From IMG/VR virus record IMGVR_UViG_3300006030_000015, positions 1-38,032 of that record: a DNA stretch of 38,032 nucleotides. One strand, given 5' to 3'. Origin of the DNA: a virus. Numbering within the stretch: the stretch's first letter is position 1; every line of letters begins with the position of its first letter. Position numbers and translations under genes: made by a program. This document shows, one piece after another, positions 25,162 to 28,686 of the stretch. Under the pieces are notes generated by a model. The model ran no database searches and had not been told where the DNA came from. It saw only the letters and a list, made by a program, of their open reading frames with translations.

Positions 25162-25403
25162 ACAGCATCCTGAAAAATCCAATGCGGAGAGTCATCAATC
25201 CAGATGTCGGCTTTGACGGTTTTCGCTTTGGCCTTGCGACTGGTGTAAATGACTTCACACGGTGGATTAATGATCACCTCGTGCGGATACCGCATCGTCA
25301 CAATCTTTACGGTGTGTCCGCTGGATTGAGCATCTCTTACGAACCGATTCCATAGTTTCGGATCGGCGGTGTAGGTGTTGTCGTAATCAAGAGCAATTAA
25401 CAT
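25155..25403 (-). CDS. Mini HAD-like phosphatase
   Basis: An 82-aa protein with the HAD-fold motifs: motif I DYDNT (residues 6-10, nucleophile D6 and D8), motif II T36 in KIVTMR, and motif IV IWIDDSP with D70-D71. A motif-III lysine may be K60 or K62 (SRKAKAKTVK). Small HAD proteins of this kind occur in phage replication clusters and may dephosphorylate nucleotides or DNA ends; substrate not predictable. The start overlaps the stop of the VRR-NUC gene (ATGTTAA) and its stop overlaps the helicase start, so all are coupled. Confidence 0.85.
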   Translation of the reverse strand: MLIALDYDNTYTADPKLWNRFVRDAQSSGHTVKIVTMRYPHEVIINPPCEVIYTSRKAKAKTVKADIWIDDSPHWIFQDAVC

Positions 25404-25693
25404 AAGCGGGCCTCGATAAGTTGCAGCATCGTGTTGATGGTTGACTTGCCATCATCTACGCTGTCGACCACGAACACGCTGATCAAGTGCTGGCGCAGTC
25501 TTTGATGCTCACGATCCTGTGCAGCCGTAGGTTTTTGCCCCTTGCGTTTGAACTCGATGAAGAACATGCGCCCCTTGTAGATGAACATGCGGTCGGGTAC
25601 TGCCATGCGATTGGGGCTGGTGAACTTGTAAACCAACACCCCGAGTTCTTTGGCGTAATTGCAAACCTTGGCTTCAATTTGTTTTTCGAGCAT
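25397..25693 (-). CDS. VRR-NUC domain nuclease
   Basis: A 98-aa PD-(D/E)XK-type nuclease of the VRR-NUC family. Key features are the N-terminal E-rich helix (LEKQIEAKVCNYAKELG), the RMAVPDRMFI strand with catalytic D (PD), and FFIEFKRKGQKPTAAQ with E-x-K. Related small proteins process branched DNA junctions in phage replication. It starts inside the end of the small gene 25674-25844 (20-bp overlap) and overlaps the next gene by seven bases. Length is typical. Confidence 0.93.
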   Translation of the reverse strand: MLEKQIEAKVCNYAKELGVLVYKFTSPNRMAVPDRMFIYKGRMFFIEFKRKGQKPTAAQDREHQRLRQHLISVFVVDSVDDGKSTINTMLQLIEARLC

Positions 25694-25844
25694 GGTCCAC
25701 CACCAGTTTTCTGTATGCGTCCAGCACTGTGCGAAGGTCTTCGCGCAGCGCCTCGATCTCTTTTTCTTGGTCCTTCATCCTCTGGTAGCAGTCTTGCGAG
25801 AACCGCGCAAGGTTGTCACGCTCCCAGGCTTCAAACCGATTCAC
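25674..25844 (-). CDS. Small coiled protein with GTG start (56 aa)
   Basis: A 56-aa ORF that fills the gap between polymerase and VRR-NUC. It starts at GTG 25844, whose GTGA overlaps the polymerase stop by three bases, and ends at TGA 25674-25676. The sequence is MNRFEAWERDNLARFSQDC, then YQRMKDQEKEIEALREDLRT and VLDAYRKLVVDHARKTN, a single amphipathic coiled helix. The overlapping ends and lack of another gene in 147 bp support reality. Function unknown; probably a replication accessory or partner of a neighbour. Confidence 0.65.
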   Translation of the reverse strand: MNRFEAWERDNLARFSQDCYQRMKDQEKEIEALREDLRTVLDAYRKLVVDHARKTN

Positions 25845-27691
25845 GCCAGCCCGAGGCAGAGTTTCTCCACCTCCCTCACGTAGTATTCAAAGTCCACCGG
25901 CAACTTGCCAGCATCCTTGATGTCGTTGCAAGGCTGGACACCCCAGCCGCTCTCGACACCGATCTTGCGCCACTCGGCTTTGCCCTTGAGGGGCGGCATC
26001 CACTTGAATAGTCGGCCACCGCCCACGGCGATGTAGTAGCGCGTGATGTTCTGCAACTGCGTGGTCACGCCATCGTGCTCCAGGCCAAGGTAGCTGCTCC
26101 TGGGCACCTTGGTGCGAAGCATGAAGTCCATGATGTCGGGCCACTGCTCCACGGTCTGCCGGATGGGCGCACCCTCAACCAGCACCTTCTCGGCCACCTT
26201 GGGGATCACGAGGCCACCAGCGTTCTGATGCCACAGGGCGTTCCACTCGTATGCGCCCTTGCGCTTGACGGAGCCGTCTTCGTACTGGCCGATGTAGTTG
26301 TTCACATCACGAATGAAGACGCGCTTGTAGACGGCCTCCTCGAGATTCAAGCCGGTGCGCGTTTGCCATGCTGCGCGGGCCATGTCCACCAGCCACTTGT
26401 TTGACCTGGGCACCCGCACGGTCAGGCCGTCAGTGTTCACCTGGATCAAGCGCAGGCCGGGGATGTGCATCAGCCCCTCGGCCAGCAGGCACAGCAGCAG
26501 TTGCCCGTTGAGCGTGATGCTCATGGTGAACAGCGGGTCATAAAACACGCTGAACTGATTGTTGCTGTCACCGTACACGCCGTTGAGCGCCAGCTTCAGC
26601 ATGGCTGATTCTGCGGACTTCTTGGGGTATTGCTTGCGCTGCTCAAAGAGGTGCTTGTAGATGGTGACAAAGGTCTTGCCGAGATGCGCGGGATAGAACC
26701 CATTCGTGATTGCCAAGTTTGGATAGTATGAAGTGACATCGAGGTCCACGATGACGAACTCATCGTCTGACTCAATGACTTCCGACTCCACTGATCCATG
26801 AATACCGCCTAATCCAAATACAAAATCAAAATTGTTGACCCGAGCGATGAGGTCCGTGAAGACACCCTTTGTCTCGGTGATGATCTGGCCCTTGAGCCAG
26901 TTGAGCACCCGATTGAACTCGGGCTGCTCGAATGCGATCCACGGCAGAATGGCATCCTTGAGCGCGATGGTAGGGCGCTTGGTCTGCCGGGGTGTGCGCC
27001 CCTTGTCACCGTAGTCGTAGCAGGCGACCCCAGCCTCCTCCAGTTTCATCACGAAGTAGTCCTTGCCGATCTTCGTGTCATTGTGGTTGATGAAGTCGCG
27101 GTTGTACTTGTGCGTCAACTCCTCGCGGAATTTGAGCATGTCGAACGTGTGTTTGTAAAACGCCTTGGTTTGCGCCACATCGTGCTTGTTGTACTTCTTG
27201 AGCACGGGCACTTGTCCTTGCGTCAGCGTGGTGCCTACCTTGAACGGCAGGTCTTCGATGTTGTCGCTACGCATGTTGAACTCCAATACCTTCAGACTGG
27301 TGGCGCGGGCCTTGTTGTCGAAGTGATGAATCTTGAACAGGTCGATCTGCGGCACAAACCGGTCTGATGGGTTGACTTGGTGTGCCCACTTGTCGTCACC
27401 ATCATCTTGCGAGTTGATGATGGCCTGAGCCTTTTGATACAGCGTGGGCGCGTCTGAGCGGCCCATGCGGATCAGGGTGTGCAGGACGGGGTAGTCAAAC
27501 CCCAGGTTATTGAACCCGACCATGCGAGCGTTTGTATCCTTGAGATACTGAAGGAACGCGATGATCTCGCGTGAGTCGTTGCGCCAGTCGCTGATCTCAA
27601 ACAGCCAGCACAGTGGTGCTTCCGCATGCTCCACCGCCAGCGTGAAGACGTTGGGATAGGTTTCGATGTCGTACACATAGTCGTTACTCAT
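25841..27691 (-). CDS. Family-B-like DNA polymerase with 3'-5' exonuclease
   Basis: A 616-aa replicative polymerase. Exonuclease motifs: Exo I YDIETYP (D8, E10), Exo II VGFNNLGFDYP (D66), Exo III YNKHD (Y167, D171). A GGIHG element (295-299) recalls the YxGG motif. Polymerase motif A is DLDVTSYYPN (D318), motif B KLALNGVYG (K366-N370-Y373-G374), and motif C QVNTDG (D421), where the usual DTDS has N-T-D-G. That makes it a compact family-B enzyme without an evident protein-primed insertion. It lies between DUF2815 and VRR-NUC genes. A long structured leader ending in six Ts precedes it. The weak ribosome site TTGAG lies in TTTTTTGAGTAACTGTA. Confidence 0.92.
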   Translation of the reverse strand: MSNDYVYDIETYPNVFTLAVEHAEAPLCWLFEISDWRNDSREIIAFLQYLKDTNARMVGFNNLGFDYPVLHTLIRMGRSDAPTLYQKAQAIINSQDDGDDKWAHQVNPSDRFVPQIDLFKIHHFDNKARATSLKVLEFNMRSDNIEDLPFKVGTTLTQGQVPVLKKYNKHDVAQTKAFYKHTFDMLKFREELTHKYNRDFINHNDTKIGKDYFVMKLEEAGVACYDYGDKGRTPRQTKRPTIALKDAILPWIAFEQPEFNRVLNWLKGQIITETKGVFTDLIARVNNFDFVFGLGGIHGSVESEVIESDDEFVIVDLDVTSYYPNLAITNGFYPAHLGKTFVTIYKHLFEQRKQYPKKSAESAMLKLALNGVYGDSNNQFSVFYDPLFTMSITLNGQLLLCLLAEGLMHIPGLRLIQVNTDGLTVRVPRSNKWLVDMARAAWQTRTGLNLEEAVYKRVFIRDVNNYIGQYEDGSVKRKGAYEWNALWHQNAGGLVIPKVAEKVLVEGAPIRQTVEQWPDIMDFMLRTKVPRSSYLGLEHDGVTTQLQNITRYYIAVGGGRLFKWMPPLKGKAEWRKIGVESGWGVQPCNDIKDAGKLPVDFEYYVREVEKLCLGLA

Positions 27692-27702
27692 TACAGTTAC
27701 TC

Positions 27703-27840
27703 AAAAAAGGGGGGACCGGAGACTGGCTGTACAGTACCGAGGGGGCGCTTTCACCAAGCATCTCGACGCCCACTTTCTGCAAACCCCATTCGACTTGCGT
27801 CTTGGCGGGGTTTCACTTCGTTTGCCCGGCACCGGTCCCT
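27703..27840 (-). ncRNA. Structured RNA element upstream of DNA polymerase
   Basis: On the minus strand, GGGACCGG (27839-27832) pairs with CCGGTCCC (27719-27712), enclosing about 110 nt, and six Ts follow (27708-27703). Inside, AAACCCC (27813-27807) pairs with GGGGTTT (27787-27781) and holds a GAC-GCAA-GTC GNRA hairpin (27801-27792). GGGCG (27771-27767) pairs with CGCCC (27747-27743), with an inner CTT/AAG hairpin. This is a multibranch fold ending in a U tract, in the only large gap of a tightly overlapped operon. It may be an attenuator or regulatory RNA. No known family recognised. Confidence 0.6.
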
Positions 27841-27847
27841 TTATCAC

Positions 27848-28030
27848 TTAGTCAGTGCCGCCAGCGTTTTCTACTGGAATAATCTCAGCATTGTCTGGAA
27901 TGTTGGGATCGGGCATAGGGGGCTGGGGCGGCTGCGACTGTGCAATCGCCTGCTCCCTGATCTTCTCAGCCAAGCCACTGAATAGGGCGATGGCAGCGTT
28001 GATCTCGCTCACATGAAGGTCGAGTTGCAT
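27848..28030 (-). CDS. Small hypothetical protein (60 aa)
   Basis: A 60-aa protein starting MQLDLHVSEINAAIALFSGL, with a helical first half (AEKIREQAIAQSQ) and a Pro-rich acidic tail (PPQPPMPDPNIPDNAE). The ATG at 28030 overlaps the DUF2815 stop (TGATG); a GTG at 28033 would add one residue. Similar short ORFs with an LDL...ELN start accompany phage replication genes, but the function is unknown. Its stop is just before the structured RNA element. Confidence 0.7.
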   Translation of the reverse strand: MQLDLHVSEINAAIALFSGLAEKIREQAIAQSQPPQPPMPDPNIPDNAEIIPVENAGGTD

Positions 28031-28686
28031 CACTGTGCTCCAGTCATAAAGGGTGGCAGGGGCATCGCTGGGGCGGCAGCGGGGGCAAACATACCAGCGG
28101 GTGCGGCGGCAGGCGCGAACAGGCTGGACGCATCGACTGCACCCTCGCCAAACGCTTTGTCGTCAGCAGCGAACTGGATGGCAATCAGGTCGCAACGGAT
28201 ACCACGGCCATGCTTGTTGTCTTGCAACCAGGGCTTGACAGCAGCGTTGACGCGGCAACCGCCGTACATCTTGCGTGTCAGTTGCTGGTAAGCCATCGTG
28301 TTGGTCGGGTCGATGGGTTGACCATCAGCCTGAATCACCTGGGGCTGCGAGTCGCGGCCAGCGGTGATAAACACATGACCAGCGTAGCCGTCATAAGGTT
28401 GGAAGGTTTTCTTGTTGACCTTCTCCTCACCACGACCGTAGCAGCGAGTCTTGCGGTCGCCTTGGATCATGCCCATGACGGTCTGGGCGTGTTCTTTCCA
28501 CTTTTCAAGCGCCAGCGCACCATACTTCTGCATGAACTGCGTGAAGCCAGGATGATCCTGGGGCATGATGAACTCGCAGTTGTAGCTGACGCGCTCCTTA
28601 CCAGTGGCCTCGTTGATCTGACGCTGTGGCTCCGCAAGGTGCGGGAAAGACAGACGGACGTTTGACAGAAAAATGATATCGGACAT
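28030..28686 (-). CDS. ssDNA-binding protein, DUF2815
   Basis: A 218-aa protein of the DUF2815 family, OB-fold ssDNA-binding proteins of phage replication modules. The start MSDIIFLSNVRLSFPHLAEP and motifs SYNCEFIMPQDHPGF, RCYGRGEEKVNK, DGYAGHVFITAGRD and YGGCRVNAAVKPW are characteristic; the last is near the conserved end of the domain (about residues 145-165). The C-terminus (FAPAAAPAGMFAPAAAPAMP) is a flexible Ala/Pro tail likely to contact partners. It has the GGAGTAACTGTA leader also seen at other genes here. Confidence 0.93.
   Translation of the reverse strand: MSDIIFLSNVRLSFPHLAEPQRQINEATGKERVSYNCEFIMPQDHPGFTQFMQKYGALALEKWKEHAQTVMGMIQGDRKTRCYGRGEEKVNKKTFQPYDGYAGHVFITAGRDSQPQVIQADGQPIDPTNTMAYQQLTRKMYGGCRVNAAVKPWLQDNKHGRGIRCDLIAIQFAADDKAFGEGAVDASSLFAPAAAPAGMFAPAAAPAMPLPPFMTGAQ

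Follow-up and report, generated by a model that had tools for sequence, protein, structure and literature searches.

Genomic context of the RNA element

The window, by which we mean the whole 38,032-nt stretch of viral DNA analysed (IMG/VR record IMGVR_UViG_3300006030_000015), carries on its minus strand a Gp2.5-like single-stranded DNA-binding protein (SSB) gene, a small ORF without a PHROG match and a DNA polymerase gene (Table 1). The polymerase ORF and the 61-aa ORF are 156 nt apart (27692-27847), so ORF coordinates bear out the gap that an earlier, sequence-only reading of this DNA had placed before the polymerase. That reading saw in the minus-strand RNA of the gap a riboswitch, attenuator or small RNA controlling polymerase expression. 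Elsewhere in the window, the plus strand, which faces that of the SSB-polymerase operon, encodes a primase/polymerase gene (PF09250, PF08707, PF13148; 30777-33269). A small ORF on the minus strand (25184-25402), HAD-like by eye, is replaced by 26 nt in the near-identical relative L001; the surrounding region (25162-25444) was considered as a second RNA slot and rejected, as it consists of this small ORF missing in L001.

Table 1 Features between the SSB and polymerase genes of the window and the basis of their assignment
Feature	Positions	Strand	Basis
DNA polymerase gene, downstream of the RNA element	25841..27691	-	phrog_1252; PF10108 exonuclease domain
U6 tract	27703..27708	-	sequence; not conserved in the slot
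CCC directly 3' of P1, where relatives have an A-C-C tail	27709..27711	-	sequence; tails of relatives
Type W structured RNA module, from one P1 arm to the other	27712..27839	-	sequence, fold, four-sequence comparison
P1 closing stem, 3' arm CCGGUCCC	27712..27719	-	sequence and four-sequence alignment
P5, 3' mini-hairpin CUG-UACAGC-CAG	27723..27734	-	two of three pairs changed on both sides
P2, 3' arm UCGGUA	27735..27740	-	four-sequence alignment
P4 arm (second stem-loop)	27743..27771	-	U-G to C-G in L280
P3 arm	27779..27825	-	C-G to U-G in L280
GNRA hairpin GAC-GCAA-GUC	27792..27801	-	sequence; invariant in four of four, so covariation is silent
P2, 5' arm UGCCGG, pairing with 27740-27735	27826..27831	-	G-U to A-U in L280
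P1 closing stem, 5' arm GGGACCGG	27832..27839	-	pair changes on both sides relative to L279-L281
61-aa ORF overlapping the SSB gene end, likely translationally coupled	27848..28033	-	ORF list
Gp2.5-like ssDNA-binding protein (SSB) gene	28030..28686	-	phrog_112, PF10991

Fold of the element

The 8-bp closing stem (P1) pairs exactly where the sequence-only reading had placed it, and the GCAA (GNRA) hairpin, the second stem-loop and the run of six U that it described are likewise present. To that fold are added here an inner closing helix (P2) and a 3' mini-hairpin (P5, 27734-27732/27725-27723). P3 consists of the helices GCAAA/UUUGC (27825-27821/27783-27779) and CCCC/GGGG (27810-27807/27787-27784) together with a 10-nt bulge and an internal loop GCCAA/GAAU, and P4 of the helices GGGCGU/GCGCCC (27771-27766/27748-27743) and CGAG/CUUG (27765-27762/27758-27755). 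The fold stops 20 nt before the polymerase AUG and, as supported, leaves the ribosome site unpaired. A covariance model of the module (R1) matches 27705-27842 at 154.9 bits, a score that arises by construction, the window being one of the sequences from which the model was built.

Homologues and covariation

An exact 21-mer of the window's module found no match in viral contigs. A looser pattern gave six matches, of which L279-L281 are real and L276-L278 due to chance, and a pattern with fixed loops and free stems returned L279-L281 again along with L510-L513; the covariance model does not accept the latter as type W and they are read as chance. The same module of about 130 nt is thus present by pattern scan in three IMG/VR contigs (L279, L280 and L281), with a core of about 110 nt nearly identical to that of the window. 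The gene downstream of it in all three belongs to one cluster and encodes a Cas4-domain/RecB-like exonuclease. The covariance model found no further type W member in 250 sources (51+99+100), a set that excludes L481-L505 and most polymerase-slot loci beyond those named here, and a search for type W in 50,697 phages, 72,556 plasmids and genome contigs gave nothing.

The closing stem reads (G)AGGGCUGG/CCAGCCCU(C) in the homologues as against GGGACCGG/CCGGUCCC in the window, and their P5 is GCG-CGC. Over the 45 pairs of P1-P5, 99.4% of cells pair in the four-sequence alignment, and five pairs are changed on both sides, a number reached in 0 of 500 shuffles; with three of the four sequences nearly alike, this amounts essentially to one deep comparison. 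Sliding the partner register lowers pairing to 36-53%, the unslid register being the best. Single-side changes in L280 (G-U/A-U, C-G/U-G and U-G/C-G) preserve P2, P3 and P4. The changes in the closing stem and the mini-hairpin, where the variable pairs lie, can be considered unselected because the pattern by which the homologues were found covers neither, while CCCC/GGGG of P3 and its hairpin carry no covariation evidence because they are invariant and inside that pattern. The compensatory changes that the sequence-only reading had proposed to look for in relatives are therefore found between the window and L279-L281, in the five double-changed pairs. Judged from sequence comparison, a real folded RNA of about 130 nt on the minus strand of the gap is confirmed.

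Folding energy, which that reading had also proposed as a test, gave a different answer for the window by itself. Dinucleotide shuffles are not convincingly beaten in minimum free energy, with z -0.63 for the whole interval (54 of 200 shuffles did as well) and z -1.42 for the trimmed element (19 of 200). Homologues reach z -2.98 (L279), -5.30 (L280) and -2.05 (L281). Energy z-scores were dropped as a structure test on account of their insensitivity: type A elements (see below) score about -0.1 to -1.6 despite overwhelming covariation, values biased by the choice of elements by best stem.

Against Rfam 15, the window gave nothing above the curated gathering threshold, and positions 27500-28000 gave two irrelevant weak matches only at E<=10. 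Eleven loci with type W, A, B, I and loop-E elements had no match at E<=1, which agrees with the earlier statement that no known RNA family was recognised. Readings as HDV-like, twister or pistol ribozyme, group I/II intron or T-box were dropped, their motifs being absent and Rfam showing none. ARAGORN reported 0 tRNA genes in the window.

A slot for unlike RNAs downstream of the SSB gene

The position was compared over 147 distinct upstream spacers of polymerase relatives, including that of phage DSL-LC05 (OR003940), where the element is of type E; the SSB gene was located upstream in 135 of these loci and the remaining 12 were left unclassified. The leader before the polymerase holds TAA, so spacers cannot be cut by ORF, and best-stem extraction misassigned many loci. 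Clustering of elements by k-mers was rejected, as it chained them via shared flanks, and signature classes defined in this analysis were used instead.

By these classes, the gap after SSB in the 135 relatives holds about ten dissimilar kinds of element plus singletons, in the form of pseudoknots, loop-E scaffolds, tRNA-like folds and plain UNCG hairpins. The commonest are type C (36), type B (29), plain UNCG hairpins (16) and type A (14), followed by other loop-E elements (8, and 3 more with C), types I (6), E (5) and D (3), tRNA-like type II (2), W (1, the window) and B with J (1); 11 loci are single or other, among them L084 with an empty gap. Replacement can be seen between close relatives. 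L001, the closest, carries a bare UACG hairpin and has 16 nt in place of the window's 132 nt, and both flanks are collinear and 95-98% identical. Among the 66 locus pairs whose polymerase genes are at least 94% identical in their first 1500 nt, 25 differ in element class. Tandem elements occur in L014, L017, L145, L176 and L200. Unlike modules in the slot share a GGGG/CCCC base stem, and W, A and B stand on different base stems elsewhere.

The placement of these elements is narrow. A strong stem starts at most 20 nt after the SSB stop in 133 of 135 loci (counted by a best-stem search without a shuffled control), and the closing stem ends 14-20 nt upstream of the polymerase AUG in 81 of 147. 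Where the SSB-polymerase gap is 300 nt or more, the RNA immediately follows SSB and is separated from the polymerase by another gene in 21 of 25 loci as judged by eye, two of which (L152 and L157) have a second element before the polymerase; the four exceptions (the window, L056, L107 and L166) have an ORF directly after SSB and an RNA adjoining the polymerase. Based on this comparison, the RNA in most cases accompanies the end of the SSB cistron. In L026, L032, L040, L061, L070, L073 and L203, genes that look by eye like homing endonucleases separate the slot RNA from the polymerase and continue without a break into its start.

Some slot elements resemble tRNAs. ARAGORN found tRNA folds in L014 and L142 (two of 22 loci scanned), and Rfam gave a tRNA match of 38.2 bits in L003 (one of 20 loci). 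The tRNA-like folds seen are those of L014 (1100-1172, plus strand), L142 (625-697, minus strand), L003 (266-331), L021, L242 and L109, some with odd anticodon arms by eye.

A U tract is not a conserved feature of the slot. Four or more U follow the stem in 3 of the 81 slot elements with a clear closing stem, and a terminator scan found none on the minus strand of the window, where U6 begins 3 nt past a stem closing a 112-nt loop, outside the 0-2 nt in which an intrinsic terminator has its U tract. The earlier reading as an attenuator with a U tract loses ground accordingly. Its proposal that the U tract replaces a usual strong ribosome site fails as well, GGAG preceding the polymerase in 3 of 147 relatives and L001 having CAUUGAGUAACUGUA.

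Two widespread families, A and B

At least 120 viral contigs match the type A pattern, and at least 120 match that of type B. For type A, 107 pattern matches were counted, 59 fitted a stricter regular expression and 45 were aligned after near-copy removal, so that matches failing the stricter expression, such as those with inserts, stand outside the alignment. Type A is a pseudoknot in which 95.3% of cells pair (45 sequences, from among the matches listed). Changes on both sides affect 17 of 22 pairs, in 195 cells compared with a shuffle mean of 59, and the unslid register is by far the best. One of its four helices (columns 30-35/72-76) pairs in no more than 82% of cells, and the pseudoknot helix is mostly invariant with one pair changed on both sides. 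A blastn search for type A in 50,697 phage records gave no match.

Type B consists of a constant scaffold with a GAA/AGUA internal loop, which we take to be loop-E-like. Its base stem covaries: 4 bp pair in 107 of the 119 matches listed, where shuffles give a mean of 28.9 and a maximum of 42. The same 119 matches hold 118 distinct inner sequences. Type B was also found in four bacterial genome records, namely metagenome-assembled genomes of Xylophilus, Limnohabitans and Armatimonadetes, and Comamonas odontotermitis. In L303 (2057-2116) a type C tip (CCACUGGGGGUUCCCGGUGGACCGG) is nested inside a type B scaffold. Base stems are often just 4-6 bp long. In the sense strand, G-U outnumbers A-C in type A helices (62:19) and in type B base stems (16:4), and UUCG and UACG loops stand in mRNA sense.

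Outside the slot, and among the matches listed, an SSB-like gene lies upstream of 20 of 117 type B and 2 of 90 type A elements, a family-A DNA polymerase gene downstream of 6 of 117 type B and 8 of 90 type A elements, and a 5'-3' exonuclease gene downstream of 19 of 90 type A elements. Other neighbours of A and B include terminase small subunit and HNH genes; a minority of neighbours have an assignment. The L399 cluster, to which 29 of the 90 type A loci listed from elsewhere than the slot belong, has a phrog_18140 gene ahead of its type A element. A conserved stretch, AGUCCyCAGCCGUGUUGGGU, lies 5' of type A in L405, L407, L411, L417, L419, L427, L434, L443, L444 and others; in L411 a terminase small subunit gene follows. 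The stretch is possibly a further RNA module.

An acceptor-like foot

Families A and B share what follows their base stems. Outside the slot, the type B tail is A (73%), C (88%), C (79%) and U (66%) in the matches listed. Among these matches, 68 of 108 type B elements have RCC right at the end of the base stem, compared with 2.3% per position further on, as do 19 of 59 type A elements, compared with 1.2%. The tail lacks RCC in 40 of the 108 type B elements and in 40 of the 59 of type A; a U-rich tail is seen in 18 of the latter 59, including one that also has RCC. The +1/+72 pair is G-C in 87 of 110 listed type B elements, and the foot pair of the window, G27839-C27712, is likewise of the G1-C72 kind. 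C at -1 is common among the elements. The tail after P1 is C-C-C in the window and L281 and A-C-C in L279 and L280. In the slot, C-ACC occurs within 40 nt of the AUG in 105 of 147 loci; 16 are plain hairpins without A-C-C, and the remaining 26 include the window and loci with a gene between RNA and polymerase. The tRNA-like type II elements (L021 and L242) end in AAC.

Such an end recalls substrates of RNase P. Two papers (PMC12710915, PMC11143913) state that the GGU of bacterial RNase P RNA base-pairs with C74, C75 and the discriminator base; that hairpin and pseudoknot substrates carrying RCC at the 3' end are cut, cleavage of a small pseudoknot being undetectable when the motif is missing; and that mRNAs, phage RNAs and hairpins are processed by the enzyme too. 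As two unlike families share an acceptor-like end and some modules are tRNA-like, RNase P is a candidate agent. It cannot explain the whole slot, because UNCG hairpins lack A-C-C and L021 and L242 end in AAC, and its recognition would be weaker in the window, where the tail is C-C-C followed by U6. Also counting against it are base stems of 4-6 bp, as opposed to the 12-bp stack of a tRNA acceptor plus T stem, the frequent type A and B tails without RCC, and the common C at -1, which PMC12710915 reports to induce cleavage at an alternative site.

Discussion

The comparisons above demonstrate the fold of the window's RNA, its portability, the replacement of such elements by unlike ones at a fixed place, their placement with respect to SSB and the following start codon, and their mRNA-sense orientation. 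Within an exchangeable RNA pool, the module of the window is a rare member with clear support. As for its role, a generic cis-acting one in processing or insulation between SSB and polymerase mRNA appears to us the best explanation, with close to an even chance of being correct. The portable, self-folding module follows SSB, or a small ORF that is coupled to SSB, and lies immediately upstream of the next ribosome site. Its stable base stem, flush between the cistrons, would separate them in cis on a polycistronic mRNA, which could give the SSB and polymerase segments differing 5' and 3' ends, stability and yield. Host RNase P might cut on the 5' side of the base stem and leave the downstream mRNA with its 5' end locked in the stem; as a part of the same explanation, and counted within its chance, RNase P as the processing agent is possible but doubtful. 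In the window, partial transcription termination may add to or replace such cleavage.

Several observations count for an intercistronic role: the compensatory changes of type W and its homologues in a different gene context, the 132 nt of the window as against the 16 nt of L001, the change of class in 25 of 66 close pairs, the stems near the SSB stop, the RNA beside SSB in 21 of 25 wide gaps, the closing stem shortly before the polymerase AUG, the G-U excess in the sense strand, the shared RCC tails and G-C foot, and the tRNA folds. Counting against it, most A and B elements outside the slot do not adjoin SSB, and a generic stem needs no conserved loops, yet A, B and W have them.

Known systems offer partial parallels. 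Phage operons of the T7 type carry intercistronic RNase III or stability hairpins. These resemble the slot elements as stable stems flush between co-transcribed cistrons, but they are long perfect duplexes, whereas the slot holds elaborate conserved modules that are exchanged wholesale. In T4, the gene 43 operator is a hairpin covering the ribosome site that the DNA polymerase binds in autoregulation. It too is an RNA structure before a phage DNA polymerase gene; the window's ribosome site, however, is not part of the fold, and the module changes while the polymerase stays nearly constant. Non-tRNA substrates of RNase P (the C4 antisense RNA precursor of phages P1 and P7, operon mRNAs, and model hairpins and pseudoknots) are alike in having a G1-C72 stem followed by R/N-C-C and in their phage mRNA location, and some slot modules are tRNA-like. 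Differences are the CCC tail of the window, the unlike cores and the lack of an Rfam C4 match, and cleavage of the slot RNAs is conjectural. The STAXI motif, as described in PMC2864571, is comparable to type A as a pseudoknot near ssb genes but differs in being a tandem pseudoknot, and no Rfam match to it was found here. It is the nearest case among open-licence papers on structured RNAs near phage polymerase or SSB genes, none of whose titles or abstracts describes the slot elements (PMC2864571); an earlier description outside open-licence papers is possible.

Alternatively, the elements could act in trans as small RNAs, for instance as decoys for tRNA-directed nucleases, defence systems or RNA-binding proteins, with replacement driven by an arms race. 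The fast exchange of unlike modules in a fixed slot, the odd anticodon arms of some tRNA-like members and the nearly always distinct inner sequences of type B on its constant scaffold would suit such a role. We consider it unlikely: the slot elements lie flush between co-directional genes, plain hairpins suffice in 16 of 135 classified loci, and no promoter was found near the element.

Ranking below this is a riboswitch, attenuator or autogenous operator, in which a ligand or the polymerase would alter the fold and thereby termination at U6 or access to the start site. The window's element does directly precede the polymerase gene, has a complex multi-helix fold with conserved loops and is followed by U6. 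Hairpins also stand directly before the polymerase in three of five distant phages inspected, one annotated as a terminator (AVIO78A) and two found by fold (PEi21 and DC31), with that of K459 one gene further up. These four are similar in having a hairpin between an upstream gene and the polymerase, but their hairpins are short and three of the four have U runs of four or more, which the slot elements mostly lack. Judged as a riboswitch, the module has a core conserved in four of four sequences and downstream genes that differ (polymerase in the window, exonuclease in the other three), and no conserved expression platform was seen in the type W or slot comparison. The change of slot content under polymerase DNA at least 94% identical, the RNA that keeps to SSB when a gene intervenes, the scarcity of U runs with the negative terminator scan, and the unpaired ribosome site all speak against regulation of this kind. 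Of the sequence-only reading, then, the structured minus-strand RNA stands, while control specific to the polymerase is not supported, given the same module ahead of an exonuclease gene, the wholesale replacement in the slot and the RNA's usual place beside SSB. The window RNA is better described as an exchangeable intercistronic module than as a polymerase riboswitch.

More improbable again are selfish or mobile RNA cassettes that move from phage to phage and whose presence in the loop of a resident stem between cistrons is tolerated. Unlike modules on the common GGGG/CCCC base stem of the slot, the different base stems of W, A and B elsewhere, the tandem and nested cases (C within B in L303) and the HNH endonuclease genes among downstream neighbours would fit. 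No reverse transcriptase, transposase or target duplication was noticed, outside any systematic search, and ordinary recombination between conserved flanks gives the same outcome. A structure acting as single-stranded DNA, for example at an origin, is very unlikely: SSB, polymerase and exonuclease genes are nearby, and such a role was once suggested for STAXI near ssb genes (PMC2864571), but the G-U excess and the UUCG and UACG tetraloops in mRNA sense point to RNA. A foldable spacer arising by chance and without function, for which the weak energy z of the window could be cited, is hardly credible given the compensatory changes and the near-invariant core in a different gene context.

Returning to the intercistronic role, a broader form of it would have freshwater phages swap unlike but functionally equivalent RNAs, as nested modules, in one slot dedicated to RNA between replication genes, all read by RNase P via the acceptor-like foot. 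Taken jointly, this is rather unlikely, less so than the trans-acting alternative. If true, any fold with the foot would serve, and the rest would be free to diversify, perhaps as decoys. The pool so envisaged would comprise pseudoknots, loop-E scaffolds with hypervariable tips, tRNA mimics and the multi-helix type W, with several families that are undescribed; types A and B, each in at least 120 viral contigs, have no Rfam match in the loci tested. A fixed intercistronic position would then be a natural library of interchangeable folded RNAs. With the slot RNAs as natural constructs, one could ask whether phage operons are shaped by RNase P and which features of an intercistronic RNA count in mRNA processing.
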